In this document: one piece after another, positions 1,604 through 23,168 of the stretch
Layout: each line of letters opens with the position of its first letter
Numbering within the stretch: the stretch's first letter is position 1
From: a virus
Virus record (IMG/VR): IMGVR_UViG_3300010370_000051
Coordinates: 1 to 53,985 of that record
Length of the DNA: 53,985 bases
Direction: 5' to 3' (one strand)
The notes under the pieces: model-generated
Databases searched by the model: none
What the model was told of the DNA's origin: nothing
What the model saw: the letters and a program-made list of their open reading frames with translations, nothing else
Made by a program: the position numbers and the translations under genes

Positions 1604-1803
1604 ATCATCGTAAACATAAGCAAGCAGAAAATCTAAAAAAGAAAGTGTACACTCCAGACGGATACATTAAAGATCCACCTGATGCAGTATGTCCTCATTG
1701 TGGTCAGAAAGGTAAGTCTTGTTCTTATGTAAATAGTGTAAGTCGTGCCTGGGCAAGAGATGCTTGTGCTAAAAAGAATTCAAAATCTTCTTCAGAGGGA
1801 TAA
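1600..1803 (+). CDS. Small Cys-rich basic protein (67 aa)
   Basis: Unrecognised. The protein is basic and contains CPHCGQKGKSC in the middle with another Cys later, like one half of a zinc ribbon, so it may bind zinc and possibly nucleic acid; this is inference from motif spacing. The start overlaps the previous stop in ATGA. A ~100-base gap follows that holds only the regulatory region of the HNH gene. Confidence 0.65.
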   Translation: MNHRKHKQAENLKKKVYTPDGYIKDPPDAVCPHCGQKGKSCSYVNSVSRAWARDACAKKNSKSSSEG

Positions 1804-1879
1804 AGATATAAGTTATTATGAGGAATTTCATTACATTTATATTACTCTGAAAGAACTTATTGAAGTTATAAAAACCAGA

Positions 1880-1910
1880 AATAAATAATCATAAGTCGCA
1901 GTAACTTATG
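1880..1910 (+). promoter_or_regulatory. Late promoter box followed by start-codon hairpin
   Basis: A late-type box AATAAATA (1880-1887) is followed by CATAAGT (1890-1896) and ACTTATG (1904-1910), a perfect 7-bp stem with a 7-nt loop. The 3' arm contains the ATG of the HNH gene. A late transcript would start near 1893, inside the 5' arm, and so could not form the hairpin; read-through early transcripts could. Confidence 0.6.
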
Positions 1911-2279
1911 GGACCTCTACACTCTCCAAAGGAATACTTGTTTCATTTACACGCAACAAGTTCTGGGGAGGCGAAACGAATGTGGAGGCAAAACATAAAA
2001 GAAGAGTGGGGACATCAATGTGCTTATTGTGGGTCAGAAGAGAACCTTACGATTGATCACATTCTTCCCCAATCAAAGGGTGGATTAGACGTTACAAAAA
2101 ATGTAGTCTGCTGCTGCCACCATTGTAACCAGTCCAAGGGGCACGAGCACTGGAAGTTGTGGTACGTTCAGCAAGATTTTTATAGTGAAGAAAGGTTTGA
2201 TAAGATAGAAAAGTGGATGAAACCAGACCCTCCAACTAATTTATTTTCTTATCGTCCAAGACGCAATAATGCATCTTGA
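1908..2279 (+). CDS. HNH endonuclease
   Basis: 123 aa. A ββα-metal HNH core lies at residues ~40-85: CAYCGSEENLTIDHILPQSK, then an Asn in DVTKNVV, then CCCHHCNQSKGH. Two CxxC-type pairs would hold a structural zinc and the central DH is catalytic in this family. The enzyme makes double-strand or single-strand cuts in DNA and is probably a free-standing homing endonuclease lying between psbD-linked genes and the fibre genes. The start ATG sits in a hairpin arm and no strong Shine-Dalgarno sequence is seen, consistent with tight control. A DNA-repair or restriction-like role cannot be excluded. Confidence 0.9.
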   Translation: MGPLHSPKEYLFHLHATSSGEAKRMWRQNIKEEWGHQCAYCGSEENLTIDHILPQSKGGLDVTKNVVCCCHHCNQSKGHEHWKLWYVQQDFYSEERFDKIEKWMKPDPPTNLFSYRPRRNNAS

Positions 2280-2286
2280 ATAAATA
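2279..2286 (+). promoter_or_regulatory. Late promoter box
   Basis: AATAAATA, overlapping the end of the HNH gene and about 50 bases before the first fibre gene; fits the T4-type late consensus TATAAATA with one change. Confidence 0.5.
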
Positions 2287-2335
2287 AATGAAAGACAGTA
2301 TATACTGTTTTTCTGGTAAATACCGAATATCATAA

Positions 2336-4681: not shown

Positions 4682-4684
4682 GAA

Positions 4685-5026
4685 ATGGCATTAGCACTTA
4701 ACGTATTTAAGACAGTTACAAAAGTTGCATCAACAAGTGCAGTTGGAATTTATACAGCACCTGTGGGATACACTGGAGTTGTTCTTTTAGCACAAGCGGC
4801 AAATATAGGAGGTAGTACTCAAACAATTTCCTTTTCTCATCAAAGAACAACTTCAGGAATTGCAGTTACTACGGAAATTTTGAAAAATTTTCCAATTTCT
4901 TCAAATGATACTGCAAATCTTTTAGCAGGCAAATTAGTTCTTGAATCTGGTGATGTTCTTGTATTATCTGCAAGCACTGGAACTGATATTAAATTTTTAG
5001 GAAGCATCTTGGAGACACTTAACTAA
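4685..5026 (+). CDS. Small structural protein, probably fibre-associated (113 aa)
   Basis: Unrecognised, lying 3 bases after the preceding structural gene and 1 base before the next, with GGAGAATAAGAA upstream as ribosome binding site. The sequence is rich in Thr, Ala, Val and Ser with alternating hydrophobic residues (GIYTAPVGYTGVVLLAQAAN), typical of a beta-sandwich. No signal peptide or membrane span. The tight spacing suggests it is made together with the fibres, perhaps as a small fibre subunit or connector. Confidence 0.75.
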   Translation: MALALNVFKTVTKVASTSAVGIYTAPVGYTGVVLLAQAANIGGSTQTISFSHQRTTSGIAVTTEILKNFPISSNDTANLLAGKLVLESGDVLVLSASTGTDIKFLGSILETLN

Positions 5027-8000: not shown

Positions 8001-8573
8001 GGTAATAATAATGGAGTTTCTGTTTTTGATAGAGTCGGCAATTCTTTAAGTAGAGTTGGAATTCTTACTGCGGTTGTTGATCCTACATCTTCTTATGGTG
8101 AATCTGCTGCAATTAGTGCCGATGGAAAAACTATTATCGTTGGTGCATATCAAGACAATGGTACAAAGGGTCGTGTATTTATATACAATCGTCAAGGAAA
8201 TGTCTTTAATCAAGTAGGAATAGTAACCGCAGGATCGAGAGCAAATGCTGGGGATTGGTTCGGATACTCATTAGCATTAAGTGCTGATGCTAAAACTCTT
8301 ATTGTTGGTGCTCCTGTTGATGAATTGACTGGTTCTACTGGATATGGATCTGTTTATATTTTTAATCAGACACAACAAACATATCTTTATTCTGGACCAA
8401 CAGGTAATATTGGTATAGGTTCAACATCACCAACAACAAAACTTGATGTTGTTGGTGATGCAAGAATTGGTATTAATACCTCTCAAGGTGTAATACTTAC
8501 CTCTGCAAATGGAACAAAATATCGTTTAATTGTAAGTGATGCTGGTACGTTAAGTACAGTTCTTGTTACCTAA
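5028..8573 (+). CDS. Tail fibre-like protein with YATSAG repeats and a beta-propeller
   Basis: 1181 aa. N-terminal half: beta-rich modules such as KLYVVGDGYFTG separated by runs of a short repeat of type YATSAGIAT (DNA 5545-5665, 6257-6400, 6890-7045), a pattern expected for a trimeric fibre shaft. Residues ~750-1120 hold seven copies of a unit with core SxADGKTIIVGA followed by VYVYDR and QVGILT: an FG-GAP-like seven-bladed propeller, usually a binding domain. The C-terminal ~55 residues repeat the KLDVVGDARIG module. Several DNA blocks are nearly identical to the next gene. Function: probably host recognition; which receptor is unknown. Confidence 0.85.
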   Translation: MTKYTSGRQKNLKVGIVSYSENLTSLEVVGGAIFSGESTGELVRISQIGTGPAFIVEDSANPDVTPFVVTTEGKVAIGVAAGGISTSYKLEVDGGDIRFVKGGQGDLIISHSNLVSNVRASGNVQLGLGANGEDAIRINLNNNVGIGTTNPTSKLYVVGDGYFTGVVTALSFSGNASSATYATSAGIATYATTAGIATYATYAINAGVSTSVIGGIGSIAQLNVSGLSTFNAISVGGTTGVNGQYLKSTGDGLVWASFTPLRSVYNFIAENSQKQFDVAGISSGYVDVFLNGIRLDDINYSLVGTGVSLTVGTFTNDEVTIISYNTTGAGSGGGTGSGSEWTRVGNGIYNTGRVSIGTDTVGSGSTVLYVVGDARITGILSIGQGTVTIDGSTNTLTVPNLVVTNNTSGINLASYATTAGISTNSIYSFSSGIASYADNSGISTYSITAGISTNVIGGIGSITQLNVSNNSYLIGNVGVGTTNPLQNLDIRGNLRITGAIYDGFDNVGLSGQILSSTGTKVQWINVSSANVGSANSIGINLDSSNSSRYITFVDNTSGTNIVKVDSDLIYNPNTNTLTASNFVGSLSGTATTATNLYDAANITTGTINSARLSGTYNININGNASSATYATSAGIATYATSTGIATYATSAGISTYATSAGIATYSNNAGIATSVIGGIASVTQLNVSGVSTLGFITTRNLYSSGIVTASAFYGDGTNLRGVPRSYYTEYSSSANVSNSALSISGISSYSQLAVIKGTYASQFNDYYGGSVALTPDGNTLVIGAWDDEISGSAGYGVVYVYDRNYGGGSDVYGEVGILTGFYASQSGDFFGISVSVSADGNTVVVGASGDETTGTDTGVVYVYDRTTENTFTQVGILTGSDSTTGDQFGEGLAISPNGSSIIVAAVGNGSRFYHFVRSGNTFDQVDLYAYGSFAGYSLNFNGDGKSFVATDNNTVILFELIDGFINIVDSYVDGSTLYSAAISADGKTIIAGNNNGVSVFDRVGNSLSRVGILTAVVDPTSSYGESAAISADGKTIIVGAYQDNGTKGRVFIYNRQGNVFNQVGIVTAGSRANAGDWFGYSLALSADAKTLIVGAPVDELTGSTGYGSVYIFNQTQQTYLYSGPTGNIGIGSTSPTTKLDVVGDARIGINTSQGVILTSANGTKYRLIVSDAGTLSTVLVT
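7276..8390 (+). repeat. Seven FG-GAP-like repeats (beta-propeller)
   Basis: Protein-level repeats with the cores TPDGNTLVIGA, SADGNTVVVGA, SPNGSSIIVAA, NGDGKSFVATD, SADGKTIIAGN, SADGKTIIVGA and SADAKTLIVGA, each followed by a V-x-V-Y/F-D-R strand in most copies. Seven units of ~50-55 aa fit one seven-bladed propeller. Confidence 0.75.
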
Positions 8574-8579
8574 ACTTCA

Positions 8580-8587
8580 AATAAATA
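8580..8587 (+). promoter_or_regulatory. Late promoter box
   Basis: AATAAATA followed by CC, 22 bases before the next fibre start; fits the T4-type late consensus. Confidence 0.55.
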
Positions 8588-8608
8588 CCTTTATAAAGCA
8601 GAAATAAA

Positions 8609-11600
8609 ATGTCTAATAGTAGGGAGATTTCTCAATTTTCATCGTTCATCTATGTAGATGATAAAAATAGAAATATTGGAATTGCAACAACTGCAACTCC
8701 CTATGTTGGTATAGGAACCACAAATCCAACATCAAAACTTTACGTTGTTGGTGATGGTTACTTTACTGGTGTTGTTACAGCATCAAATTTTTCTGGTAAT
8801 GTTTCAAGTGCTACTTATGCTACATCAGCAGGTATAGCAACAGCACTTCAGACCGCAAGAACTTTTGAAATTACTGGTGATATTGTTGCTTCGCCAATTA
8901 GTTTTGATGGAACTGGAAATGTATCTCTAGCAGCAACTATCCAACCAAATTCAGTTGCTCTTGGTTCTGATACGACTGGTGACTATGTTCAAACAGTATC
9001 TGGAACATTAAATCAGATCACGGTTACTGGTGGGACTGGTGAAGGTTCAACACCAACATTAAGTCTTCCAAATAATTTAGTTATTCCTCAGGACGCAATA
9101 GTTACAAGAGATCTTCAGGTTAATCGCAACCTAAACGTAACTGGAAATATTACAATTGGTGGTACAACAGCATTTATTAATGTTCAGGAATTAAGAGTTA
9201 CTGACCCAGATCTTGTTCTTGGATTTAGAACAGATGCTTTTGGTAATGATTCTTCTACAGATAATACAGCAAATCACGGTGGTATTGCAATTGCATCCAC
9301 TGAAGGAACCCCATTAACTCAATTATTCATTGCTGGAATTGAAACTACTCCATCCACATATAAGAAAATTATGTGGTTTAAGGCGGGTACTTTTGCTGGA
9401 CTTGGAACCGACGCTTGGTTAAGTAATTATGCTATTGGTATTGGTTCGACACAGTTCCCAGTGGGGACAAGACTCGCTGCCGGTTCTGTTCAATTTACTG
9501 AAAGAGATTTAGTAGTCGTTAGAAACATTAACGCTTCTGGTGTTGTAACGGCATCAAGTTTTTCTGGCAATGCTTCTAGTGCTACTTATGCTTCAGTAGC
9601 AGGAATCGCAACCTATGCCGTTACCGCTGGAGTCTCTACGTTCTCTGGTTATGCTAACGTTGCTGGCATTGCAACTTACGCAACCAATGCTGGATTAAGT
9701 ACTTATGCTACATCAGCAGGTATAAGCACTTATTCTAATAATGCTGGTATAGCAACCTATGCCGTTACCGCTGGAGTCTCTACGTTCTCTGGTTATGCTA
9801 ACGTTGCTGGCGTCTCTACGTTCTCTGGTTACGCTAACGTTGCTGGTGTCTCTACGTTCTCTGAATATGCTTCAGTAGCAGGAATCGCAACCTATGCCGT
9901 TACCGCTGGAGTTGCTACAAATGCACAAGGTCTCATAGGAACTCCAAATATTACTGTTGCAAATATTACTGCAGCAAGTCTAAATTCAAGTGGTATTGTT
10001 ACTGGTTCTTCTTTCCGACCAAGCACTGGTTATTATCAATCGGCAAATGGAACCAATGCTTTTTATGTATTTGATACTAGTGGTGATGTATCTTTTCAAG
10101 GAAAGATAGTTACAAATTATATAAGAAGTAATACCAATTTAAATCCAACTATTACAGTTTCGGATCTTGATTTACAGTTTGCAAGAAATGTTACTATTTC
10201 TGGTATTACAACTTCAACTGGTGGTTTTGTAGGAAACTTAACAGGAACAGCATCAACAGCATCATTTGCTACAACTGCTTATAATTTAACTGATGCTGCA
10301 AATATTACTACTGGAACTATTAATAGTGCTAGATTAAGTGGAACTTATAATATTAATATTAATGGTAATGCTTCAAGTGCTACTTACGCAACATCAGCAG
10401 GAATTGCTACTTATTCTAATAATGCTGGTATAGCAACATCAGTCATTGGTGGAATTGCATCTGTTACACAATTAAATGTTTCTGGAGTTTCAACATTTAA
10501 TTCAAATGTTGGTATTAAGACATTAAATGCTACATCGGCACTTTATGTCGTTGGTGATACTTATATAACTGGAATTTTAACAGCAAATAGAATTTTTAGT
10601 TCCATTTATGGAGAATTTACTGGTTCTTCTGTAACTAGTGATTCTCTTGTAGGAACTGCTTTATCTATTTCTGGTATTAGCACTCTTGGAATTACTAGTG
10701 CTACGAATCTAACCGCACAACAACTGAATGTAACCGGTCTTTCAACTTTTGCTGGAATTACCACAGTCACTGGAGAGACTTTATTCTCCAAGCAATTAAA
10801 CGTTTCTGGTGTTTCCACATTCAAAGGAAATGTAAATCTTGCTGATAATGCAAGTCTGTATCTTGGTGATGGAAATGATTTAAGAATTTTTCATAATGGA
10901 TCAAATAGTTTTATTTCGGAAGTTGGAACTGGAGGACTTTTTATTGATGCATCTAGTACCACCTATAGATCTGCATCACATACATTTAAAAATGGCGGTT
11001 CAACAGAAAACCTTGCAATCTTCACTGAAAATAGTTCAGTAGAACTTTATTATGACAACTCCAAAAAGTTTGAAACTTCTGGTGTTGGCGCAACCGTTTA
11101 TGGAACACTCGATACAACTCAACTAAACGTTTCTGGTTTTTCTACTTTTGTAGGAGTCTCAACATTCCAGTCATCTTTATTTGGTTCTCAAGCATCCTTT
11201 ACTGGTGTTGTAACAGCATCAAGTTTTTCTGGAAATGCTTCAAGTTCTACTTATTCAACATCGGCAGGAATTGCCACTTATGCTACATCGGCAGATATTG
11301 CTACTTATGCGACTAATGCAGGAATAGCAACAAATCTCAAAGGTGGTGCAGGTGGTTCTATACCTTATCAAACTGCAGCAGATACAACCACTTTCTTAGC
11401 AAATGGTATTTCTGGTTATATTTTACAGGCAAATGGTGGTACAAGCGCACCTTCTTGGGTTCCTGCAGCACCTGCATCTGCAATTACTGGACTTACAATA
11501 AGAGACGAAGGTACAATTGTTGGTACTGCAAATAGTGTTTCGCAACTTAATTTTGTTGGTGCAACTGTTACTGCGACTGCATCTGGTTCTATTTCTACAA

Positions 11601-11902
11601 TTACAGTTTCTGCTCCTGCTGGAATGGAAATTCGTGATGAAGGAACAATTGTTGGAAGTGCAATTACATCAATAAATATTGTCGGTGCAGGAATTACTGC
11701 AACAGCATCAGGTACTGCAACAACAATTACTTCATTGAGTCCAACTGGTGGTGGAACAGATGCTGTATTTTACTTGAATGATAATACTATAAACAATGCT
11801 TATACGATTCCTTCTGGAAAGAATGCTCTTTCAGTTGGACCACTTACAATTAATGCGACTGTCACAATTAGTGCGAATGCAAGTTGGGTTGTAATTTCCT
11901 AA
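8609..11902 (+). CDS. Tail fibre-like protein with YATSAG / VSTFSGYANVAG repeats
   Basis: 1097 aa. It shares modules with the preceding fibre gene: KLYVVGDGYFTG, DAANITTGTINSARLSG and TSVIGGIASVTQLNVSG, in places nearly identical at DNA level. Low-complexity runs of YATSAGIAT and a 12-residue unit VSTFSGYANVAG (DNA 9612-9900) are likely fibre shaft. Residues ~740-830 (LADNASLYLGDGNDLRIFHN) are of a type found in phage fibres, and two copies of IRDEGTIVG lie near the C-terminus. No intramolecular chaperone domain is seen at its end. It probably forms part of a long fibre or whisker; partner proteins cannot be named. Confidence 0.82.
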   Translation: MSNSREISQFSSFIYVDDKNRNIGIATTATPYVGIGTTNPTSKLYVVGDGYFTGVVTASNFSGNVSSATYATSAGIATALQTARTFEITGDIVASPISFDGTGNVSLAATIQPNSVALGSDTTGDYVQTVSGTLNQITVTGGTGEGSTPTLSLPNNLVIPQDAIVTRDLQVNRNLNVTGNITIGGTTAFINVQELRVTDPDLVLGFRTDAFGNDSSTDNTANHGGIAIASTEGTPLTQLFIAGIETTPSTYKKIMWFKAGTFAGLGTDAWLSNYAIGIGSTQFPVGTRLAAGSVQFTERDLVVVRNINASGVVTASSFSGNASSATYASVAGIATYAVTAGVSTFSGYANVAGIATYATNAGLSTYATSAGISTYSNNAGIATYAVTAGVSTFSGYANVAGVSTFSGYANVAGVSTFSEYASVAGIATYAVTAGVATNAQGLIGTPNITVANITAASLNSSGIVTGSSFRPSTGYYQSANGTNAFYVFDTSGDVSFQGKIVTNYIRSNTNLNPTITVSDLDLQFARNVTISGITTSTGGFVGNLTGTASTASFATTAYNLTDAANITTGTINSARLSGTYNININGNASSATYATSAGIATYSNNAGIATSVIGGIASVTQLNVSGVSTFNSNVGIKTLNATSALYVVGDTYITGILTANRIFSSIYGEFTGSSVTSDSLVGTALSISGISTLGITSATNLTAQQLNVTGLSTFAGITTVTGETLFSKQLNVSGVSTFKGNVNLADNASLYLGDGNDLRIFHNGSNSFISEVGTGGLFIDASSTTYRSASHTFKNGGSTENLAIFTENSSVELYYDNSKKFETSGVGATVYGTLDTTQLNVSGFSTFVGVSTFQSSLFGSQASFTGVVTASSFSGNASSSTYSTSAGIATYATSADIATYATNAGIATNLKGGAGGSIPYQTAADTTTFLANGISGYILQANGGTSAPSWVPAAPASAITGLTIRDEGTIVGTANSVSQLNFVGATVTATASGSISTITVSAPAGMEIRDEGTIVGSAITSINIVGAGITATASGTATTITSLSPTGGGTDAVFYLNDNTINNAYTIPSGKNALSVGPLTINATVTISANASWVVIS
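9612..9900 (+). repeat. 36-bp tandem repeats in fibre shaft
   Basis: The unit encoding VSTFSGYANVAG occurs singly near 9620-9665 and then three times in tandem from about 9773 to 9880, the last copy diverged. The flanking segment that starts AACCTATGCCGTTACCGC recurs around it. Codons in these copies differ from the neighbouring YATSAG runs, suggesting a separate recent amplification. Confidence 0.75.
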
Positions 11903-11923: not shown

Positions 11924-14900
11924 ATGCCTGTAAATATAGGACCAAATAGTATTACTGGTATTACTCAAGTTAATAATCCAGATGATGCTGTAAATAAAAC
12001 TTATGTGGATAGTCGTGCAGGAGTTCCCACACTTGCAGGAAACGAGAATGAGTTTCTGTATAGTGACGGAATCAATGCGACTTGGGAACCAATAGGAGCA
12101 ACGCAGGAATACACTACTTTTGGTTCTTATACTTATACAGTACCACCACAAGCAAAAGAATTATTGATTGAGGCAACTGGTGCTGGTGGTGGTGGAGCAA
12201 GTGGAAATACTGATACTAGTTCTTATGAAACTGCAAGTATTTGGACTTTAAGAACTGGTTGTTTTTCTAATAATATTATTCGTTCTTTTATTTATTCAAC
12301 TTTTTATGTTTCTAGTGACAATGGTGGTAGAATTGGAACTTCAACAGATGCAATCACCTGGACTTTAAGAACTTCTGGTTTTGGTGGTACTACTATTTCT
12401 GGTCTTATTTATGCAAATAATACTTATCTTGCTGGTGGTAGTGGTGGAGTCTTAAACACCTCAACAGATGCAATTGCTTGGACTTTAAGAACTTCTGGTT
12501 TTGCTGTTATATACAATATTCTTGCTCTTACTTATGGAACTGTTTATGTTGCTAGTGGTAGTGGTGGAGTCTTAAACACCTCAACAGATACAATTACTTG
12601 GGAATTAAGAACTTCTGCAATTAGTTTAAGTAGTATTAATGCACTTACTTTTGGAAATAATCTTTATGTTATTGGTGCTGGGGGAACATTACAATCTTCA
12701 ACAGATGCAATTGTCTGGACTTTAAGAACTTCTGCTGGTTTTGGTGCTAATCAAATTAATGCACTTACTTATGCAAACAATATTTATGTTGCAGGTGATC
12801 AAAGTGGAATCTTAAACACCTCAACAGACACAATCACCTGGACTTTAAGAACTTCTGGTTTTGGTGTGGCTGGTATTCTTGCTCTTACTTATGCAAACAA
12901 TACTTATTTTGCAGGTGGTGCTAATGGAATCTTAAACACATCAACAGATGCTATTGCTTGGACTTTAAGGACTGCTGGTTTTGCTACTAATGGTATTTAT
13001 TCCCTTACTTATGCAAACAATACTTATGTTGCTGGTGGTGTTAGTGGAACTCTATCAGTATCACCCCACATACCACCAGGAATGACAGGAGGTTCTGGAG
13101 GTTCTGGAGCATCAGCATCCTGGAGTATTTCAAAAGACCAAATTATATCTTCTGGAATTACTGTGAATGTTTCAAGAGGTGGATTTGGTGGTCAATTAGT
13201 TCCTGTTCGTTGGATTTTAAGAACTGCTTCTTTTACTAATCAACCTATTACTTCACTTATCTTTGGAAATAATACTTATGTTGGTGGTGGTAGTGGTTTG
13301 GGAATATTAAACACCTCAACAAACGCAATCACCTGGACTTTAAGAACTGCTGGGTTTGGTGTTAATGGTATTAATGCTCTTATCTACTCAAATTTTTATG
13401 TTGCTGGTAGTACTGGTGGAGTCTTAAACACTTCAACAGATGCAATCACCTGGACTTTAAGAACTTCTGGTTTTGGTTCTAATAGTATTGGTGAACTTAC
13501 TTATGCTTTGGGACAAACAAATGCTTATGTTGCTGGTGGTGATAATGGAATCTTAAACACCTCAACAGATGCAATTACTTGGACTTTAAGAACTTCTGGT
13601 TTTGGTGTTAATGCTATTCGTGCCCTTACTTATGCAAATAATCTTTATGTTGCTGGTGGAGACGGGGGGTTAAGTACTTCAACAGACGCAATTTCTTGGG
13701 TTTTAAGAACTTCTGGTAATCTTCCTAGAATCATTACTTATGCAAATAATCTTTATGTTGCTGGTGGAAATGGTAGTACTGGAGTCTTAACTACCTCAAC
13801 AGACGCAATCATTTGGACTTTAAGAACTTCTGGTTTTGGTACTAGTAGTATTATTGCTCTTACTTATGCAAACAATACTTATGTTGCTGGTGGTGTTGGT
13901 GGAATTTTAAACACCTCAACAGACGCAATCACCTGGACTTTAAGAACTTCTAATACTACGCAACTTATTTACGCACTTATTAATACAAACAATGCTTATG
14001 TTGCTGGGTGTGCTGGTGCAACTTTACTCACATCAAACGTAACAGCAGAAAATGGTTCAAATACTACAATAACCTGGACTGGACCAAGCAGTAGAACTTA
14101 TACACTTTCAGTAAATGGTGGTGATGCAGGGTCAAACACTGGATTTTTATTAGGTGGTTCTGGTGGTACAATACCAACTACAGATAGCAATTATCTTCAA
14201 GCATCTGCTGGTCTTTCTGGTGTTGCTGGAAGAGTAGTACCAACAACAGGATTTTCACCTGCTACTGCATCAAGTTCTTTTCAATCAACTGCTGGTGGTT
14301 CTGGTGGTTATAGTAGTGCAAGTTCTCGTTCTGCATCTCTTGGTGGTTCTGGTGGAACCATTAATTATTATGGTTCAACCAACACTTTTACTAATATTGA
14401 GGTTAGTGGAAGAATTGCTAGTTCAATTTCTGGACTCTCTTATGGTAATGGTGGAAGTGGTGGTGGTGCTGTGAGTGATAATGCTCTTTATTGGACTTCA
14501 AGAACTTCTGGTTTTAGTACTGCTGTAATTAATGCTCTTACTTATGGAAACAATACTTATCTTGCTGGTGGTGCTAATGGAATTTTAAATACCTCAACAG
14601 ATGCAATTAGTTGGATTATAGGAACTTCTGGTACTGGTAGTACTATTAATGGGGTGGTATATGGAGACAATCTTTATGTTACAGTTGGTGCTGTTCCAAT
14701 AACCACTTCAACAGATTTAATTACTTGGGTTTTGAGAACTTCTGGTGTAGGTGCTCTTTCGATTTATGCTCTTACTTATTCAACTTTTTATGTTGCTGGT
14801 GGTCAAAGTGGAAGATTAATCACTTCAACAGATGCAATTGCCTGGACTTTAAGAACTGCTGGTTTTGTTTCTAATGCTTTATCACTCACCTATGCAAACA

Positions 14901-15454
14901 ATCTTTATATTGTCGGTGGTTCTGGTGGAATATTAAACACCTCAACAGATGCAATTACTTGGTCTTTAAGAACTACTATTGGTTTTAGTACTATTTACTC
15001 ACTAACCTATGCCAACAATACTTATGTTGCTGGTGGTGTTAGTGGTGCTAGTGTAGGAATATTAAACACCTCAACTGACACAATCACCTGGACATTAAGA
15101 ACTACCGGATATGGTTTTGGTAGTTTAATTAATGCATTAACTTATGCAAACAGTACTTATGTTGCTGGTGGTGGTAGTGGAAATGTATCTATTTCAACAG
15201 ACGCAATCACTTGGATTTTAAGAACTGCTGGTTTTAGTACTAATGCTATTAATGCCCTTACTTTTGGTAATAACCTGTATGTTGCTGGTGGTGTTAATGG
15301 TACTCTCACAACCTCCCCAACAATATCTGCAGGTTCAGGAGGTTCTGGAGTCAAAGGTGGTGGAGGTGGTGGAGGTGGTTATGAAGAAACCACAGACACT
15401 GCAGGTGCAGGTGGTGATGGTGGTGATGGTTATGTTCGTATCAGTTGGGCATAA
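11924..15454 (+). CDS. Gly-rich fibre scaffold carrying three seven-repeat propellers
   Basis: 1176 aa. N-terminal ~100 residues: short docking region with NPDDAVNKTYVDS, then YTVPPQAKELLIEATGAGGG, the start of a glycine-rich domain. This scaffold is interrupted three times by arrays of a ~40-aa repeat with consensus TSTDAITWTLRTSGFG then ALTYANNTYVAGG. By the W-T-L-R-T marker the arrays hold 7, 7 and 7 units, as expected for three seven-bladed propellers. The C-terminus is GVKGGGGGGGGYEE then GGDGGDGYVRISW, a poly-Gly end resembling Gly-rich adhesin tips. Probable role: receptor binding at fibre tips (inference). Two paralogues follow. No protease or chaperone domain is seen. Confidence 0.85.
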   Translation: MPVNIGPNSITGITQVNNPDDAVNKTYVDSRAGVPTLAGNENEFLYSDGINATWEPIGATQEYTTFGSYTYTVPPQAKELLIEATGAGGGGASGNTDTSSYETASIWTLRTGCFSNNIIRSFIYSTFYVSSDNGGRIGTSTDAITWTLRTSGFGGTTISGLIYANNTYLAGGSGGVLNTSTDAIAWTLRTSGFAVIYNILALTYGTVYVASGSGGVLNTSTDTITWELRTSAISLSSINALTFGNNLYVIGAGGTLQSSTDAIVWTLRTSAGFGANQINALTYANNIYVAGDQSGILNTSTDTITWTLRTSGFGVAGILALTYANNTYFAGGANGILNTSTDAIAWTLRTAGFATNGIYSLTYANNTYVAGGVSGTLSVSPHIPPGMTGGSGGSGASASWSISKDQIISSGITVNVSRGGFGGQLVPVRWILRTASFTNQPITSLIFGNNTYVGGGSGLGILNTSTNAITWTLRTAGFGVNGINALIYSNFYVAGSTGGVLNTSTDAITWTLRTSGFGSNSIGELTYALGQTNAYVAGGDNGILNTSTDAITWTLRTSGFGVNAIRALTYANNLYVAGGDGGLSTSTDAISWVLRTSGNLPRIITYANNLYVAGGNGSTGVLTTSTDAIIWTLRTSGFGTSSIIALTYANNTYVAGGVGGILNTSTDAITWTLRTSNTTQLIYALINTNNAYVAGCAGATLLTSNVTAENGSNTTITWTGPSSRTYTLSVNGGDAGSNTGFLLGGSGGTIPTTDSNYLQASAGLSGVAGRVVPTTGFSPATASSSFQSTAGGSGGYSSASSRSASLGGSGGTINYYGSTNTFTNIEVSGRIASSISGLSYGNGGSGGGAVSDNALYWTSRTSGFSTAVINALTYGNNTYLAGGANGILNTSTDAISWIIGTSGTGSTINGVVYGDNLYVTVGAVPITTSTDLITWVLRTSGVGALSIYALTYSTFYVAGGQSGRLITSTDAIAWTLRTAGFVSNALSLTYANNLYIVGGSGGILNTSTDAITWSLRTTIGFSTIYSLTYANNTYVAGGVSGASVGILNTSTDTITWTLRTTGYGFGSLINALTYANSTYVAGGGSGNVSISTDAITWILRTAGFSTNAINALTFGNNLYVAGGVNGTLTTSPTISAGSGGSGVKGGGGGGGGYEETTDTAGAGGDGGDGYVRISWA
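12242..13065 (+). repeat. Propeller array 1: seven WTLRT repeats
   Basis: Seven units of ~117-126 bp, inserted after GAGGGGASG in the scaffold. Units are highly alike at DNA level (CAACAGATGCAATCACCTGG recurs), and the most variable part is the segment after RTSG. Confidence 0.8.
13211..14040 (+). repeat. Propeller array 2: seven WTLRT repeats
   Basis: Seven units, inserted after the scaffold segment TVNVSRGGFGGQ and before NTTITWTGPSSRTYTL. Same unit length and consensus as array 1. Confidence 0.8.
14492..15320 (+). repeat. Propeller array 3: seven WTLRT repeats
   Basis: Seven units, inserted after YGNGGSGGGAVSDN and before GGSGVKGGGGGGGG. One unit has IIGT in place of TLRT, so counting uses the whole unit rather than the motif alone. 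Confidence 0.8.
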
Positions 15455-15466
15455 GGAGGACTAACA

Positions 15467-18136
15467 ATGCCAGTAGATCCAATTAAATTTTCAGAAAATA
15501 GTATTTCAGGACTTACAACAGCAACGGATTTCACTGATGTTCCGTATAAGTCTTATGTGGATTCTAATGTTTCTCCACTACCTTCACAGGTTGGTGCATC
15601 AGGTAAATTTCTTACCACAACAGATGGAACAACAAGAACTTGGGATTATGTTTCTAATTACCAAGAATTTACAACCACAGGAGAGCAAACATTTACGGTT
15701 CCAAGTCAGGCAAATCTTTTATACATTGAAGCAACTGGTGCTGGTGGTGGAGGAAGTGCAGGACAAAGTAATGCATTGAATGCCGTGACTTGGACTTTAA
15801 GAACTGCTCGTTTTAGTTCTAGCATCATTTATTCCTTTACTTATTCAACTTTTTATGTTGCAGGTAGTCAAAGTGGAATCTTAAACACCTCAACAAATGC
15901 AATTGTCTGGACTTTAAGAACTTCTGGTTTTGGTTCTGGTGGTACTATTCTTGCTCTTACTTATGCAAACAATACTTATATTGGTGGTGGTACTAGTGGA
16001 ACCTTAATCACTTCAACAGATGCAATTGCTTGGACTTTAAGAACTTTTGGATTGGGTACTACTCAAATTAATACTCTTACTTATGGAAACAATACTTATG
16101 TTGCTGGTACTAATACTGGAGATATAAACACTTCAACAGACGCAATCACTTGGGAATTGAGAACTGCTGGTTTTGGTGGTAATGGTATTTCTGCCCTTAC
16201 TTATGCAAACAATACTTATGTTGCTGGTCGTGTTAGTGGAATCTTAAACACCTCAACAGATGCAATTGCTTGGACTTTAAGAACTTCTGGTTTTGGTATT
16301 AATCAAATTGTTGCTCTTACTTATGGAAACAATCTTTACGTTGCTGGTGGTCAAACTGGAACATTAAACACCTCAACAGATGCAATCACCTGGACTTTAA
16401 GAACTTCTGGTTTTGGTTCTGGTGGTACTATTCTTCCTCTTACTTATGGAAACAATACTTATGTTGCTGGCGGAGATAGTGGAGTATTAAATACCTCAAC
16501 AGATGCAATCACCTGGACTTTAAGAACTTCTGGTTTTGGAACTAATATCATTTATGCTTTAACTTATGCAAACAATACTTATGTTGCTGGTGGTGCTAGT
16601 GGAATCTTAAATACCTCATACGCACAAGCATCAGGAGCAGGAGGTTCATCAGGTTCTTATACGTCTTGGTATATTCCAAAGAACATTGTTTCTTCTAATA
16701 TCACTGTCAATCCTGGTGTTGGTGGTACTGGTGCAACAACAGATGCAGGTACTGGTTCAGCAGGAGCAGGAACAACAATAACTTGGACTGGACCTGGAGG
16801 AACTTATACACTTACTGCAAATGGTGGAGGTGCTGGTGGAATAGCAGGAGCAGCACAATTAGTTACGCAGTCAAGTTCTTTTTATACCACTGCTGGACTT
16901 TCTGGAGCACCACAAACTCCAATTGATGGTGGATTTACAGCAACCGCACAAACCAACCAATTCCAACCAACGGGTGGTGGTAGTGGTGGTTTTACAACAA
17001 GTATTGGAGTTTCTGGTGGTAATGGTGGGTCTATCGTATCTTATGGAAATACTATTTTCTCTCTTGCAGGTTATGGTGATGGTAGTAATGGCAATAGTGC
17101 AACAGCAATCACCGCACTTCCTTATGGATTAGGTGGTGGTGGAGGTGGTGCGGTTGTTGATAATCCACCACCAAGTGCAACCTGGACTTTAAGAACTTCT
17201 GGTTTTAGTGGTAATTCAATTAATGCTCTTACTTATGCAAACAATACTTATGTTGCTGGTGGTGTTAATGGAGTATTAAACACTTCAACAGATGCAATTG
17301 CCTGGACTTTAAGAACTTCTGGTTTGGGTGGTAATTACATTTATGCACTTACTTATGGAACTGTTTATGTTGCTAGTGGTAGTGGTGGAGTCTTAAACAC
17401 TTCAACAGATGCAATCACCTGGACTTTAAGAACTTCTGGGACAACTGTTTCTGTTTATGGACTTACTTTTGGAAACAATACTTATGTTGCTGGTGGAAGT
17501 TTTGCTGGAATTCCAGAATTAACCACCTCAACAGATGCAATCACCTGGACTTTAAGAACTTCTGGTTCTACTAATACTATTTGGACACTTACTTATGCAA
17601 ACAATACTTATCTTGCTGGTGGTAATGCTGGAATCTTAAATACCTCAACAGACACAATCACCTGGACTTTAAGAACTGCTGGTTTTGGTGTTAATGCTAT
17701 TCGTGCTCTTACTTATGCAAACAATACTTATCTTGCTGGTGGTAATGCTGGAATCTTAAACACATCAACAGATGCAATTGCTTGGACTTTAAGAACTTCT
17801 GGGACAACTGTTTCTGTTTATGGACTTACTTTTGGAAACAATACTTATGTTGCTGGTGGTGCTAATGGAATCTTAAACACATCAACAGATGCAATCACCT
17901 GGACTTTAAGAACTTCTAATGTTGCAACTAATATTAATGCTCTTACCTACGCAAACAATACTTATATTGGTGGTACTAGTGGTGGAACCTTAATCACTTC
18001 AACAGCAACAGCAACTGCAGGTGCAGGAGGTTCTGGTGTTCGTGGAGGTGGTGGAGGTGGTGGTGCTTCTATTGGTTCTACTTTTGGTCGTGGTGGTAAT
18101 GGTGGTGATGGTTACGTGAAGATTACCTGGTGGTAA
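15467..18136 (+). CDS. Gly-rich fibre scaffold carrying two seven-repeat propellers
   Basis: 889 aa, paralogue of the preceding gene, with a strong AAGGAGG ribosome binding site. Same N-terminal plan (ATDFTDVPYKSYVDS, then FTVPSQANLLYIEATGAGGG), same scaffold segments (SWYIPKNIVSSNITVNPGVG, TITWTGPGGTYTLTANGG) and the same poly-Gly end finishing GGDGYVKITWW. Seven-repeat arrays occupy the first and third insertion sites, but the second site is empty: the scaffold runs from VNPGVGG straight into the ITWTGPGG segment. This empty site explains the shorter length (889 against 1176 aa, close to one propeller). Likely a receptor-binding fibre or tip protein. Confidence 0.85.
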   Translation: MPVDPIKFSENSISGLTTATDFTDVPYKSYVDSNVSPLPSQVGASGKFLTTTDGTTRTWDYVSNYQEFTTTGEQTFTVPSQANLLYIEATGAGGGGSAGQSNALNAVTWTLRTARFSSSIIYSFTYSTFYVAGSQSGILNTSTNAIVWTLRTSGFGSGGTILALTYANNTYIGGGTSGTLITSTDAIAWTLRTFGLGTTQINTLTYGNNTYVAGTNTGDINTSTDAITWELRTAGFGGNGISALTYANNTYVAGRVSGILNTSTDAIAWTLRTSGFGINQIVALTYGNNLYVAGGQTGTLNTSTDAITWTLRTSGFGSGGTILPLTYGNNTYVAGGDSGVLNTSTDAITWTLRTSGFGTNIIYALTYANNTYVAGGASGILNTSYAQASGAGGSSGSYTSWYIPKNIVSSNITVNPGVGGTGATTDAGTGSAGAGTTITWTGPGGTYTLTANGGGAGGIAGAAQLVTQSSSFYTTAGLSGAPQTPIDGGFTATAQTNQFQPTGGGSGGFTTSIGVSGGNGGSIVSYGNTIFSLAGYGDGSNGNSATAITALPYGLGGGGGGAVVDNPPPSATWTLRTSGFSGNSINALTYANNTYVAGGVNGVLNTSTDAIAWTLRTSGLGGNYIYALTYGTVYVASGSGGVLNTSTDAITWTLRTSGTTVSVYGLTFGNNTYVAGGSFAGIPELTTSTDAITWTLRTSGSTNTIWTLTYANNTYLAGGNAGILNTSTDTITWTLRTAGFGVNAIRALTYANNTYLAGGNAGILNTSTDAIAWTLRTSGTTVSVYGLTFGNNTYVAGGANGILNTSTDAITWTLRTSNVATNINALTYANNTYIGGTSGGTLITSTATATAGAGGSGVRGGGGGGGASIGSTFGRGGNGGDGYVKITWW
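15791..16617 (+). repeat. Propeller array 4: seven WTLRT repeats
   Basis: Seven units, inserted after GAGGGGSAGQS (first site). Units 2 and 6 both carry the variable loop GFGSGGTI, suggesting duplication or gene conversion of that blade. Confidence 0.8.
17183..18003 (+). repeat. Propeller array 5: seven WTLRT repeats
   Basis: Seven units, inserted after YGLGGGGGGAVVDN (third site). Two units share SGTTVSVYGLTFGNNTYVAG almost exactly, again pointing to blade duplication. Confidence 0.8.
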
Positions 18137-18142
18137 TAAATA
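18135..18142 (+). promoter_or_regulatory. Late promoter box
   Basis: AATAAATA directly around the stop of the preceding gene and 28 bases before the next fibre start, which also has an AAGGAAGG ribosome binding site. Confidence 0.55.
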
Positions 18143-18169
18143 TTAAAAAGGAAGGAATAAGAACATAAA

Positions 18170-21100
18170 ATGTCTCAAATACTCTCTGGAAGAATTACTG
18201 GTATTACAAGTACGACATCAGCAACTGATGCTTCAACGAAAGAATATGCCGACCAGTTTACAAGTCCAAGTACAACTGGAAATGCTGGTGGATTTTTGAG
18301 TGTTTATCCTGGTCTTTCTTATTGGGTGTTGAGAACTGCTGGGTTTGCTGTCAGTCAACAAATTTATTCACTCATTTATACAACTTTTTATGTTGCAGGT
18401 GGTTCTAATGGAGTCTTAAACACCTCAACAGATACAATCACCTGGACTTTAAGAACTGCTGGTTTTACTACTAATCCTTTTTACTCACTTACTTATGGAA
18501 ATAATACTTATGTTGGTTGCAGTAGTAATGGAGTTTTAATTTCATCTACAGATACAATCACTTGGACTTTAAGAACTTCTGGTATAACAAATACTATTAA
18601 TACTCTTACTTACTCAACTTTTTATATTGCAGGTGCTGATGCTGGAAGATTAATCACCTCAACAGATGCAATTGCTTGGTCTCAAAGAACTTCTGGATTT
18701 GGAAGTAATAATATTACTGCCTTTGTTTACTCAAATAATACTTATGTTGCTGGTGGTCAAACTGGAACATTAAACACCTCAACAGATGCAATTGTCTGGA
18801 CTTTTAGAACTTCTGGGACTGCTAATGCAATTATTTCTCTTACCTTTGGAAATAATACTTATGTTGCTGGTGGTGGTGCAGGAACTTTAATTACTTCAAC
18901 AGACACAATCACTTGGACTGTAAGAAGTTCTAATACTACTAATAATATTAATGCTCTTACCTATGCAAATAATACTTATGTTGCTGGTGGTGTTAGTGGA
19001 ACCTTAAGAACATCAACAGATACAATTACTTGGTCTTCTAGAACTTCTGGATTTAGTACTAATAATATTAGTGCTCTTACTTATGCAAACAATACTTATA
19101 TTGCTGGTGGTTCTGGTGGTACTCTAGCAATCTCCCAACCCAGAAGACAAAGTTGGAAACCAATAAACTCCACAACCACAACAACATTAGACAGAGCAAC
19201 ATACAAAGGTTCACAAGAATTCACAGCATCGGGAACCTTCTTTATTCCTCCAAGTGCAACACAGTTTTATATTGAAGCAATCGGTGCTGGTGGTGGAGGA
19301 GCATCAGGAAGATATACAGGTACTTTAGGTTCTGGTGGTGGTGGAGGTTCTGGTGCTTATAATGCCTGGTTAATTCGTCGTGGAGAACTTGGAAATGCTA
19401 CAACGATGACTGTAACCGTTGGTGCTGGTGGTCGTGGTGGAAACAATCGTGGTATGAGTACCAGTACTGATGGTATTAATTGGTTTACTGTTCCTGGTGG
19501 TTCTGGGTTTGGTACTAATTCAGTTAGTGCTCTTACTTATGGAACTGTTTATGTTGCTGGTGGTGCTAATGGAGTTTTAAATACCTCAACAGATACAAAT
19601 ACTTGGATTTTAAGAACTGCTGGTCTTGGTGGTTTTAGCATTTTTTCCCTTACTTATGGAAATAATACTTATATTGCTGGTAGTACTGGTGGAGTCTTAA
19701 ACACTTCAACAGATGCAATCACCTGGACTTTAAGAACTGCAGGTAATTTTATTGGTGATAATACTACAGCACTCACTTACGGAAACAATACTTATGTTGC
19801 TGGTGGTACTAGTGGAAAATTAAGCACCTCAACAGACGCAATCACTTGGACTTCCAGAACTGCTGGTTTTGGTGCTAATCAAATTAATGCACTCATCTTT
19901 GCAAACAATACTTATCTTGCTGGTGGTTCTACTATTGGTGCCTTTAACACTTCAACAGATGCAATCACCTGGACTTTAAGAACTTCTGGTTTTGGTTCTA
20001 ATGGTATTGTTGCTCTCACTTATGCAAACAATACTTATGTTGCTGGTGGTACTAGTGGAAAATTAAATACTTCAACGGATGGAATTGCTTGGACTTTAAG
20101 AACTTCTGGTTTTACTGTTACTATTAATGCCCTTACTTATGCAAATAATCTTTATATTGTTGGTAGTACTGGTGGAGTCTTAAACACTTCAACAGATGCA
20201 ATCACCTGGACTTTAAGAACCTCATTGTTCCAAGCACAAAGCATTATTGCTCTCACCTACGGAACTACCTTCGTTGCTGGTGGTGTTACTTCTGGTGCTG
20301 GTGCTGCTGGTGGTTCTACAACGGTCACCTGGACTGGAAATACTCCAACAGGTACTGCGACTTATACTTTAACTTCTTCTGCTGGTAGTGGTGCAAGTGA
20401 TACAACAACTTCTGGTGGTAATGGGGCTGGAAACGCAGGATTACTTTCTAATGCTCTCTATGTTACTTCTGGTCTTGTTGGTGCTACTGGTCGTTCTACT
20501 TATGGTTCCTCAAATGCAACACAAAACTCCAGATTCCAACCAACAGGTGGTGGAAGTGGAGCATATAATACCAGTACTGGTGGAAGTTCTACAATGTACT
20601 GGTATGGAAATACTTATACTGCAAGTGGTGGAAGTGATACTGGTGGTAATGGAAGTGGTGGTATTGATGGTTCTTATACTGGAAACATTGGAAGTGGTGG
20701 AGGTGGTGGAGGTGCTTTAAGTGAAGGACTTACGAGTTGGTATTTAAGAACTTCTGGTTTTGGTTCTACTAATATTCTTGCTCTTGCTTTTGGAAATAAT
20801 ACTTATGTTGCTGCTGGTGCTAATGGGGTTTTAAGTACTTCAACAAATGCAATCACCTGGACTTTAAGAACTGCTGGTCAGTTGTTTAATCTTGACCCTC
20901 TTTCTTATTTGAATAATGAATTCTTTATTGGTGGTGCTGGAACTTTAAGCACCTCAACAGACGCAATCACCTGGACTTTCAGAACTTCTGGTACTAATGC
21001 TACTTTTGGAGATTTCATCTATGCGAATAATCTTTATGTTGCATCATTTACGAGTGTTGGAACAGTAAGTACTTCAACAGATGCAGTTTGTTGGACTTTA

Positions 21101-21700
21101 AGAACTTCTGGGACAACTGTTTCTTTACCTTCTCTTACATATTCAACTTTTTACGTTGCTGGTGGTTTTAGTGGAGTAATTATTACTTCAACAGACGCAA
21201 TCACCTGGACTTTAAGAACTTCTGGAACATCAAATAATAGTTCATCTCTTACCTATGGAAATAATTTATATCTTGCTTCTGGTGGATTTAGTGGTGATTT
21301 AAGGTCTTCGACGGATACAATTACTTGGTCTTTAAGAACTTTTGGAAATGCTACTCCTATTATTAGTTCTCTTTTTTATTCAAATAATACTTATTTTGCT
21401 GGTACTAGTGGTGGTGAGATGAGAACTTCAACGGATGGGATTGTTTGGTTTGTAAGGACTTTATCTACTCTTCCTACTACTATCTATTCCATTATTTTTG
21501 GGAATAACAATTATGTTCTTGGTGGTGGTAATCCTATAGCATTATATTCAGCATCAGCAATCTCACAATCCGCAGCAGGAAACGGAGGCAACGGCACCAG
21601 AGGTGGTGGAGGTGGTGGAGGTGGATATGCAGCAGAAGGAAATCGTTTTGGATTAGGTGGAAATGGTGGAGATGGATATGTAAGAATTACCTGGTGGTAA
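18170..21700 (+). CDS. Gly-rich fibre scaffold carrying three seven-repeat propellers, different site use
   Basis: 1176 aa, third paralogue. Here one seven-repeat array comes before the scaffold start, directly after the short docking region (ATDASTKEYADQF); the first internal site after IEAIGAGGGGASG has no array and continues GRYTGTLGSGGGGGSGAY. Arrays then occupy the second site (after TVGAGGRGGNNRG) and the third site (after IGSGGGGGGALSEG). The end is again poly-Gly followed by GGNGGDGYVRITWW. The same eight-part plan with shifted array positions argues that propellers move as modules. Likely role as for its paralogues. It is the last fibre gene before the sugar-transfer operon. Confidence 0.85.
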   Translation: MSQILSGRITGITSTTSATDASTKEYADQFTSPSTTGNAGGFLSVYPGLSYWVLRTAGFAVSQQIYSLIYTTFYVAGGSNGVLNTSTDTITWTLRTAGFTTNPFYSLTYGNNTYVGCSSNGVLISSTDTITWTLRTSGITNTINTLTYSTFYIAGADAGRLITSTDAIAWSQRTSGFGSNNITAFVYSNNTYVAGGQTGTLNTSTDAIVWTFRTSGTANAIISLTFGNNTYVAGGGAGTLITSTDTITWTVRSSNTTNNINALTYANNTYVAGGVSGTLRTSTDTITWSSRTSGFSTNNISALTYANNTYIAGGSGGTLAISQPRRQSWKPINSTTTTTLDRATYKGSQEFTASGTFFIPPSATQFYIEAIGAGGGGASGRYTGTLGSGGGGGSGAYNAWLIRRGELGNATTMTVTVGAGGRGGNNRGMSTSTDGINWFTVPGGSGFGTNSVSALTYGTVYVAGGANGVLNTSTDTNTWILRTAGLGGFSIFSLTYGNNTYIAGSTGGVLNTSTDAITWTLRTAGNFIGDNTTALTYGNNTYVAGGTSGKLSTSTDAITWTSRTAGFGANQINALIFANNTYLAGGSTIGAFNTSTDAITWTLRTSGFGSNGIVALTYANNTYVAGGTSGKLNTSTDGIAWTLRTSGFTVTINALTYANNLYIVGSTGGVLNTSTDAITWTLRTSLFQAQSIIALTYGTTFVAGGVTSGAGAAGGSTTVTWTGNTPTGTATYTLTSSAGSGASDTTTSGGNGAGNAGLLSNALYVTSGLVGATGRSTYGSSNATQNSRFQPTGGGSGAYNTSTGGSSTMYWYGNTYTASGGSDTGGNGSGGIDGSYTGNIGSGGGGGGALSEGLTSWYLRTSGFGSTNILALAFGNNTYVAAGANGVLSTSTNAITWTLRTAGQLFNLDPLSYLNNEFFIGGAGTLSTSTDAITWTFRTSGTNATFGDFIYANNLYVASFTSVGTVSTSTDAVCWTLRTSGTTVSLPSLTYSTFYVAGGFSGVIITSTDAITWTLRTSGTSNNSSSLTYGNNLYLASGGFSGDLRSSTDTITWSLRTFGNATPIISSLFYSNNTYFAGTSGGEMRTSTDGIVWFVRTLSTLPTTIYSIIFGNNNYVLGGGNPIALYSASAISQSAAGNGGNGTRGGGGGGGGYAAEGNRFGLGGNGGDGYVRITWW
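18323..19140 (+). repeat. Propeller array 6: seven WTLRT repeats
   Basis: Seven units at the N-terminal side of the scaffold, a position not used in the two paralogues; ends before QPRRQSWKPINSTT. Confidence 0.8.
19454..20290 (+). repeat. Propeller array 7: seven repeats, shifted boundaries
   Basis: Seven units, but the array begins with STSTDGINW and ends with TYGTTFVAGG, whereas the others begin near WTLRT and end near LxTS. The unit is thus circularly shifted by about one strand relative to the insertion point. The first unit has WFTVPG in place of WTLRT. Confidence 0.75.
20738..21550 (+). repeat. Propeller array 8: seven WTLRT repeats, more diverged
   Basis: Seven units after GGGGGGALSEGLTS. 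The units are the most diverged of the eight arrays (for example DPLSYLNNEFFIGG and SIIFGNNNYVLGGG), suggesting it is older or under different selection. Confidence 0.75.
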
Positions 21701-21745: not shown

Positions 21746-22468
21746 ATGCCTCTAAATTATACAAATCAATCTTCAAGCACAACTCTTAAAGGTAAAACAA
21801 TTGCTTTTTGTCTTCCAGGATTAATGTATTCTGGAACCTTTATGACGCAATTCGTCAGACTTTTGTTTGACCTTAATCAGCAAGGAATTAATTTTTATAT
21901 CTCTCAACAATACAGTTCAATGGTGAATCACGCACGAACTGATTGTTTGCAGGCAGATAATTATGCAGGAACAATGCTGACTCCATTCAGGGGACAGGTT
22001 CCTTATGATTACATTATGTGGATTGATAGTGATATTATCTTCAAAACAGAAGACCTGATTGAACTTCTGCAAATGAATAAGGACATTGCGTCTGGTTGGT
22101 ATTGCCAATCAAATGGTGGTGCTCTCTCTAATCAAACAACGGTCGTTGAACGAATGGACGACCAGGAACTGTATCAAAAAGGTACAAATCGTTATGAGAC
22201 TGTTGAGGATATGGCACGAAGAGCAGAACCTTTTAAAGTAGATTATTGTGGCTTTGGTTGGATGCTGATTAAGAAAGGTGTTTATGAGAAAATTCCTTAT
22301 CCTTGGTTTGTTCCTAGAGTAATTCAACTCAAGAAACCAGACGGAACAATTCTTGAAGATGTCTGCTCTGAAGATATTTCAATGTGTCAGGACTTTAAAA
22401 AATATGGTTTTGATATTTGGGTTCATCCAAAAGTTCGTGTTGGTCATCAAAAAATGGTAATTCTGTAA
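21746..22468 (+). CDS. Glycosyltransferase-like protein (GT-A fold)
   Basis: 240 aa. The motif YDYIMWIDSDIIFKTEDLIE contains a DSD that matches the DxD metal/sugar-nucleotide site of GT-A glycosyltransferases, at residues ~88-107. A KTIAFCLPGLMYSG strand-turn lies near the N-terminus. It would move a sugar from a nucleotide donor in the cytoplasm; donor and acceptor are unknown. First gene of a seven-gene block with overlaps or gaps of a few bases. Paralogous in outline to the next gene. Adjacent fibres are very rich in Asn, Ser and Thr, so virion glycosylation is a reasonable inference. Confidence 0.75.
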   Translation: MPLNYTNQSSSTTLKGKTIAFCLPGLMYSGTFMTQFVRLLFDLNQQGINFYISQQYSSMVNHARTDCLQADNYAGTMLTPFRGQVPYDYIMWIDSDIIFKTEDLIELLQMNKDIASGWYCQSNGGALSNQTTVVERMDDQELYQKGTNRYETVEDMARRAEPFKVDYCGFGWMLIKKGVYEKIPYPWFVPRVIQLKKPDGTILEDVCSEDISMCQDFKKYGFDIWVHPKVRVGHQKMVIL

Positions 22469-22472
22469 AACT

Positions 22473-23168
22473 ATGTTAAACTATTCTAATTCTTCTCAAC
22501 AAGCAACACTACCACACTTCAATGTAGTCATCACAACTCCAGGACATTCAATGTGTGCTGATTATGTGAAGTGTCTTATGGCAACAATTCACACACTTCA
22601 GGCAAATAATATCTCCTGGATTTTTCAAAGTGAATATGCTTCTATTATTACAAATGCAAGAGAAGCAACTATTACAGGTAGTCGTAATTTAGAAGTCTTT
22701 AATTCTGCACCAGGAAAAGGACAATACACTTACGACAAACTGTTTATGATTGATAGTGATATTCTTTGGAATCCAGAACAGTTTTTAAGATTTTATTCTA
22801 GTGATAAGAGTGTAATTTCTGCTGTGTACTTTGAAGCACAAGGTGCTGATGCAATGATTCATCGCACAAAGGGTGATTTTAAACCAGTAAAGAGAGAAGA
22901 GATTCAACTTCTTCAGCAACTTGGTGAACCAATTGAAGTTTATGGAGTTGGTCTTGGTTTTATGTGTGTGAAATCTGGTGTATTCGAATCACTCAAAAGA
23001 CCTTGGTTTGGTCTAGGTAAAGTCATTCAAGAGGTTGATGGTGTAACTTATGAACTTCCATTAGGTGAAGATTTATACTTCTGCGAAAGGGTAGCAGAGC
23101 AGGGTCATAAAGTTTATGTTGATTCTCAAATTATTGTTGGTCATATGAAGAGTAATGTTGTATGTTGA
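22473..23168 (+). CDS. Glycosyltransferase-like protein (GT-A fold), paralogue
   Basis: 231 aa. Shares the plan of the preceding protein: FNVVITTPGHSMCADYVKCL near the N-terminus, SEYASIITNAREATITGS, and the DxD-containing YDKLFMIDSDILWNPEQF. C-terminal ELPLGEDLYFCERVAEQGHK matches the acceptor-side ED motif of many GT-A enzymes. It starts 4 bases after the preceding stop and ends 7 bases inside the next gene, so it belongs to the same transcript. Substrate unknown. Confidence 0.75.
   Translation: MLNYSNSSQQATLPHFNVVITTPGHSMCADYVKCLMATIHTLQANNISWIFQSEYASIITNAREATITGSRNLEVFNSAPGKGQYTYDKLFMIDSDILWNPEQFLRFYSSDKSVISAVYFEAQGADAMIHRTKGDFKPVKREEIQLLQQLGEPIEVYGVGLGFMCVKSGVFESLKRPWFGLGKVIQEVDGVTYELPLGEDLYFCERVAEQGHKVYVDSQIIVGHMKSNVVC

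Follow-up and report, generated by a model that had tools for sequence, protein, structure and literature searches.

Probable seven-bladed propeller modules, putative receptor-binding heads, inserted in a glycine-rich domain of cyanophage fibres and probably nested in relatives

Three adjacent fibre genes of a T4-like cyanomyovirus contain eight blocks of seven repeated units, and each block interrupts, or in one case precedes, a glycine-rich host domain that the three genes have in common. We consider it very likely that the blocks are closed seven-bladed beta-propellers, inserted in loops at the fibre tip, where they would serve as receptor-binding heads. In relatives of the phage this architecture is probably recursive, with propellers both in the fibre-tip loops and in the loops of other propellers, so that a depth of four and up to 49 blades per array are reached, while nearly every ring has seven blades and the inserts occupy blades 1 to 5, mostly alternate ones.

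Eight Blocks of Seven Units in Three Fibre Genes

The window, i.e., the whole stretch of DNA that was analysed, is a virus record of 53,985 bases, assigned to a T4-like cyanomyovirus by its gene content: psbA, PhoH, a single-strand binding protein, and the baseplate genes of a contractile tail. The three genes, here called A, B, and C, lie directly 3' of genes that match tail-fibre PHROGs, and baseplate and tail genes are found elsewhere in the window. None of the PHROG matches labels A, B, or C as a fibre, and their identity as fibre genes follows from this context together with the Gly_rich_2 host domain. The blocks are called propellers in the list, in anticipation of the evidence for their fold, and all features are on the plus strand.

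5028 to 8573, +: further tail-fibre gene (context), with FG-GAP_2 repeats near its C-terminus; PHROG and Pfam matches
8609 to 11902, +: upstream tail-fibre gene (context); PHROG tail fiber and baseplate wedge matches
11924 to 15454, +: fibre gene A, 1176 aa, Gly_rich_2 host domain and three putative propellers
12242 to 13075, +: putative propeller A-P1, 7 blades, host loop site 1, after GAGGGGASG
13211 to 14050, +: putative propeller A-P2, 7 blades, host loop site 2
14492 to 15328, +: putative propeller A-P3, 7 blades, host loop site 3, between GGSGGGA and GGSGVKGGGGGGGG
15467 to 18136, +: fibre gene B, 889 aa, Gly_rich_2 host domain and two putative propellers
15791 to 16621, +: putative propeller B-P1, 7 blades, host loop site 1
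17183 to 18016, +: putative propeller B-P2, 7 blades, host loop site 3
18170 to 21700, +: fibre gene C, 1176 aa, Gly_rich_2 host domain and three putative propellers
18323 to 19147, +: putative propeller C-P1, 7 blades, linker ahead of the host domain (site 0)
19481 to 20308, +: putative propeller C-P2, 7 blades, host loop site 2
20738 to 21562, +: putative propeller C-P3, 7 blades, host loop site 3

There are 56 units of about 40 residues, 21 in A, 14 in B, and 21 in C (7, 7, 7 / 7, 7 / 7, 7, 7). All eight blocks are 275–280 residues long, and they take up 71%, 62%, and 70% of proteins A, B, and C, respectively. A preliminary description of this DNA had proposed eight blocks, each with seven such units, in three genes; the count is recovered in eight blocks out of eight, and TRF finds the same arrays. 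The placement of the eight blocks stands as well, with corrected spans: the seventh begins at 19481 rather than at 19454. Since an independently assembled contig of the same phage (IMGVR_UViG_3300010354_000250) shows 1 difference in 11,000 bases, the count of seven is no accident of assembly.

The neighbourhood has features of its own. The FG-GAP_2 repeats of the gene at 5028–8573 extend over 7305–8385 (Pfam E 5e-26), seven units were counted there by eye, and this may be a ninth propeller, of another family, adjoining the eight. Directly after the three fibre genes, at 21746–23168, come two glycosyltransferase-like genes, both phrog_1574. Near the beginning of the window (185–2279), the psbA (D1) reading frame starts at profile position 89 and is followed by an HNH endonuclease reading frame at 1908; it looks like a psbA that either harbours an intron-type element or is truncated where the contig ends. 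A search of window positions 1–5000 with Rfam found no known family.

The Blocks Are Insertions in One Host Domain

When the blocks are excised, the remaining host proteins of A, B, and C can be aligned from end to end, and every one of them matches Gly_rich_2 (PF21722) without a break, with 27.7, 29.8, and 40.2 bits, respectively, at a gathering cut-off of 24.3 bits. When the blocks are left in, Gly_rich_2 scores for C only. From this follows that the blocks interrupt one domain, i.e., that they are inserted in a single, continuous Gly_rich_2 host. The preliminary description had seen propellers in fibre genes, but had missed their placement as inserts in a glycine-rich domain.

There are four insertion sites: the linker before the domain (used in C), loop 1 (A and B), loop 2 (A and C), and loop 3 (A, B, and C). 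The three paralogues thus occupy differing subsets of the same sites, and every loop site adjoins glycine-rich stretches. A module may also be present in one phage and absent in another: the site-3 propeller B-P2 is cleanly missing from gene B of five relatives (L006, L008, L014, L027, and L036). When the host-domain profile was compared with solved structures, the sole match, a weak one, was phage tail protein gp33 ("tail wing brush", 9d93, E 0.0013).

Fold and Sequence of the Units

A profile built from 18 blocks, taken from this phage, other phages, and bacteria, matches the photosystem II assembly factor Ycf48, with an E value of 3.6e-10 for 8am5 and values near 1e-8 for 2xbg, 5ojp, 5oj5, and 5ojr. 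It also matches the designed WD40 propellers Ika8 and Tako8 (7.7e-12 for Ika8), and an earlier profile of the blocks matches Ika8 at 1.9e-20. Ycf48 folds as a propeller with seven blades. On these sequence grounds we hold with high confidence that the blocks are seven-bladed beta-propellers, and the closed fold suggested in the preliminary description is supported both by the match to Ycf48 and by the count of seven across relatives. The blade turn has the consensus STDAITW, which retains the Ser, Asp, and Trp of SxDxGxTW but is one residue shorter and has no Gly; the turn is therefore Asp-box-like and lies outside the strict Asp-box motif.

The mean identity between units is 56% for protein and 70.7% for DNA (41–93%), so that the original impression of units nearly identical at the DNA level was overstated. 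Variation is concentrated in two hot spots, of which only the loop after RTSG had been noticed, the second being the GGxxG loop. From the fold, these loops are predicted to join strands 4–1 and 2–3, and to open on the same face of the ring. Synonymous codons are position-specific: the Leu of WTLRT is TTA in 43 of 46 cases and the Leu of ALTY is CTT in 40 of 48, which points to one recent DNA ancestor. A Mantel test for shuffling of loops inside blades gave a mixed result, with r 0.35 within the blade, and swapping of loops is accordingly not claimed.

Units are equally alike across blocks and genes as inside a block: blade identity is 56.6% within a propeller, 56.2% between propellers, and 57.3% for the same index in different blocks, so that the index carries almost no signal, and only 8 of the 56 units have their nearest neighbour in their own block. 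From this follows that the blocks are not simple duplicates of a single block of seven units. The simplest reading is that the eight rings have all exchanged blades with one another, while a rule holds each of them at seven.

Other Readings of the Blocks

Consider the case in which seven is a relic of copying, so that one block of seven units was duplicated whole and no ring had to close. The position-specific codons, which suggest a recent DNA ancestor for all 56 units, and the presence or absence of whole modules at the loop sites both agree with such a history. The almost identical figures for same-index and arbitrary pairs and the scarcity of nearest neighbours inside a block do not, and at 56% identity the positional order has been lost while seven has been kept, diverged phages and nested modules included; we find a copying relic unlikely. 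An active role as glycosidase heads, which cut a host polysaccharide rather than bind it, would fit the weak matches of five of the eight blocks to NCBIfam glycosyl_F510_1955 (best E 2.4e-7). Still, strong conservation falls on the Trp, Arg, Ser, Thr, Asp, and Gly that repeat in every blade, and an informal look revealed no one-off conserved cluster of acidic residues or arginines of the kind that an active site needs, which leaves enzymes a little less likely still.

Least likely of the three is an open beta-solenoid, or a similar stalk, in which no ring is formed. AlphaFold models of full-length proteins are of low confidence, both for gene B of the window (pLDDT 36, pTM 0.31) and for a nested relative (pLDDT 45, pTM 0.52). 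The latter, low-confidence model has long strands, and Foldseek returns nothing significant for it, the matches being to non-propeller folds of S-layer, autotransporter, and leucine-rich type, as a solenoid would have it. This model lies, however, far under usable confidence, the profile matches are to Ycf48 and WD40-type propellers, and an open form gives no reason why there should be seven units or why a module with adjacent ends should be inserted in loops.

Seven Units in Relatives

Genes A and C, the array of L014, and the blocks served as queries against viral contigs, and many related fibres were collected in this way. Seven units were found, in many sequence contexts, by automatic parsing in 112 of 123 complete outer arrays and in 52 of 54 nested arrays. 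The length-based bracket parser is confounded by blades with a GNGLL insert and by tryptophans in loops and in the host domain, so the remainder was checked by hand, and a few arrays of more distant families, e.g., L043 and L144, could not be parsed. Upon inspection, most deviations are due to missed first blades, loop tryptophans, or truncated contigs, and four look real: five units in L015 and in a nested array of L021, and six units in L023 and in a nested array of L008. Seven is a strong rule, but not an absolute one: the constancy of block size expected from the window is nearly always borne out in relatives and seems to fail in these four arrays.

Related repeats also occur in other settings. 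A second phage family (L118–L139, e.g., L135 from 6755 onward) has the repeat WTTRTSNFGNTxIxSVAYGNNLWVAGG in arrays of seven (L135) or, in tandem, fourteen units (L122); a Gly-rich host was not seen there. In the Actinomycetia phage DSL-LC01 (L044, 8479–9351), i.e., in an actinobacterial phage, a stand-alone gene of seven units is annotated as a photosystem II assembly factor, and it is likelier to be a free propeller adhesin.

Probable Nesting of Propellers in Relatives

The eight blocks of the window have no propellers nested in them, and nesting is confined to relatives. The preliminary description missed it; the comparison of blocks among relatives that it proposed does support seven. The long arrays of relatives have short units, mostly of 31–35 residues, which end before the Asp-turn, and long units of 53–66 residues, which end in a linker and a second last strand. 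To see what this may mean, let short units be opening and long units closing brackets. The brackets then balance, and almost every ring obtains seven blades. In this notation L006 and L009 read P1(P2,P3), L005 reads P1(P2(P3,P4)), and the gene C array of L014 reads P1(P2(P3(P4,P5),P6)), while L099, parsed by hand, reads P1(P2(P3,P4,P5,P6)) and gene C of L008 and L029 has 49 blades in seven rings. The chance of obtaining only sevens under random balanced bracketing is 1.3e-6 for L014, 8e-8 for gene C of L008, and 3.4e-4 for each of L005 and L028, the latter an array of 14 blades at 7276–9969. These statistics are partly post hoc, since the thresholds for the brackets were chosen after the first examples had been viewed; partial safeguards are the existence of three unit-length groups and the separate signatures in blade alignment and blade length.

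The signature in alignment appears when inserts are removed, for the outer blades then pair index by index across phages. To exemplify, blade 3 of L006, which is filled, and blade 3 of L005 and L021, which is empty, align at 72–77%, and such pairs of filled and empty sites support nesting. The signature in length is that the blade following an insert is longer (median 44 versus 40, p 3e-14). A global alignment of nested with plain gene B smears the nested insert, and was excluded from the evidence for nesting. Taken together, we judge it likely that propellers are nested inside the blades of other propellers in these relatives.

An arrangement of ordinary tandem propellers, following each other in sequence order, would produce totals that are multiples of seven just as nesting does, and tandem arrays do exist, as the fourteen units of L122 demonstrate. 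When the long arrays are cut sequentially, however, the linkers are scattered over remainders 1 to 6 modulo 7, whereas the bracket reading gives seven per ring at the low chance values above, and neither the one-to-one match of outer blades after removal of inserts, with blade 3 filled in L006 and empty in L005 and L021, nor the longer blade after an insert is expected from tandem order. We regard it as very unlikely that the long arrays are of this kind.

Inserts are carried by blades 1 to 4 in the automatic parse and up to blade 5 in L099, usually by blades 1 and 3 or by blades 2 and 4; a single insert parsed in blade 6 stems from a broken frame in L008. A frame break splits the giant gene C of L008 and of L011 midway through an outer blade, with 1714 aa before and at least 2644 aa after it, where L014 and L041 are unbroken. 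In L099, from 2894 onward, four seven-blade propellers sit in the consecutive blades 2, 3, 4, and 5 of one propeller, in contrast to the usual spacing with one empty blade between inserts. The usual site of insertion is the strand 2–3 hairpin, and in the third gene C array of L008 one insert, in the blade with WTVRSTALNIQTLTAVNGG, is apparently in the first hairpin, between strands 1 and 2.

Discussion

We propose that each block is a closed, Asp-box-like seven-bladed propeller related to Ycf48, which as a module with its N and C ends side by side would have entered a loop between glycine-rich stretches, with one extra propeller of gene C placed in the linker before the Gly_rich_2 domain. The fibre may assemble as a trimer, with the propellers as heads on its tip, and they probably bind a host receptor. 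The number of blades would be fixed because the ring must close, while the two hypervariable loops of each blade, after RTSG and at GGxxG, are free to vary and could thereby change the bound target. Such receptor-binding modules have most likely spread by recombination: new propellers would arise when blades recombine with one another and when whole modules are transferred into loops, those of other propellers among them, which would yield the nested arrays of relatives.

The preservation of seven blades amid reshuffling of sequence separates the constraint of the fold from that of the sequence, and makes these arrays a natural experiment on blade number. If the nesting is true, it is the deepest recursive domain insertion known to us, and it could allow a phage to widen its receptor repertoire with the fibre scaffold unchanged. 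The route of insertion can be tested directly, since close relatives offer both filled and empty sites. Where a stand-alone phage gene is annotated as a photosystem II assembly factor, it may instead encode an adhesin.

Among open-licence papers we found neither a published precedent for nested propellers nor the combination of fibre-loop propellers, a near-fixed seven, and recursive insertion; amplification of propellers from single blades and glycine-rich fibre tips are known already. With the Ycf48 (PSII_BNR) and Asp-box group, the phage blocks share the profile match and a Ser-x-Asp...Trp turn in each blade, and with Ycf48 the blade count of seven. They differ in their STDxxTW turn, one residue shorter than that of the group, and, from Ycf48, in being far more repetitive, inserted in fibres, and without link to photosystem assembly. 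The integrin I domain is likewise inserted in a propeller loop, and DDB1 likewise has several propellers in one chain. In DDB1 one propeller interrupts another, which would be a precedent at a single level; what sets the relatives apart from both is that propellers have probably entered other propellers repeatedly and recursively, down to a depth of four and under a seven-blade rule.

Highly repetitive propellers amplified from single blades, including Asp-box members and a few viral ones, have been described (Pereira and Lupas 2022, PMC9218822). The common codon fingerprint suggests such amplification also here, but the mean blade identity within a phage propeller is below the >60% criterion of that paper, and its families form a continuum of blade numbers, whereas seven is nearly fixed in the phage blocks. 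Phage fibres and nesting are absent from the paper ("phage" has 0 occurrences). In the solved fibre of myocyanophage Pam3, gp24, a glycine-rich domain has loops along the fibre axis, and the variable tips are proposed to bind receptors (PMC9608196). No sequence match of our host domain to Pam3 gp24 was found, and its resemblance to the glycine-rich domain of Pam3 is proposed as an analogy. Pam3 gp24 and the S16-type gp38 adhesins have glycine-rich loops, as the phage fibres have, and variable distal tips as the proposed receptor binders; here, in contrast, the loops would bear whole propellers of 277 residues instead of short variable tips.
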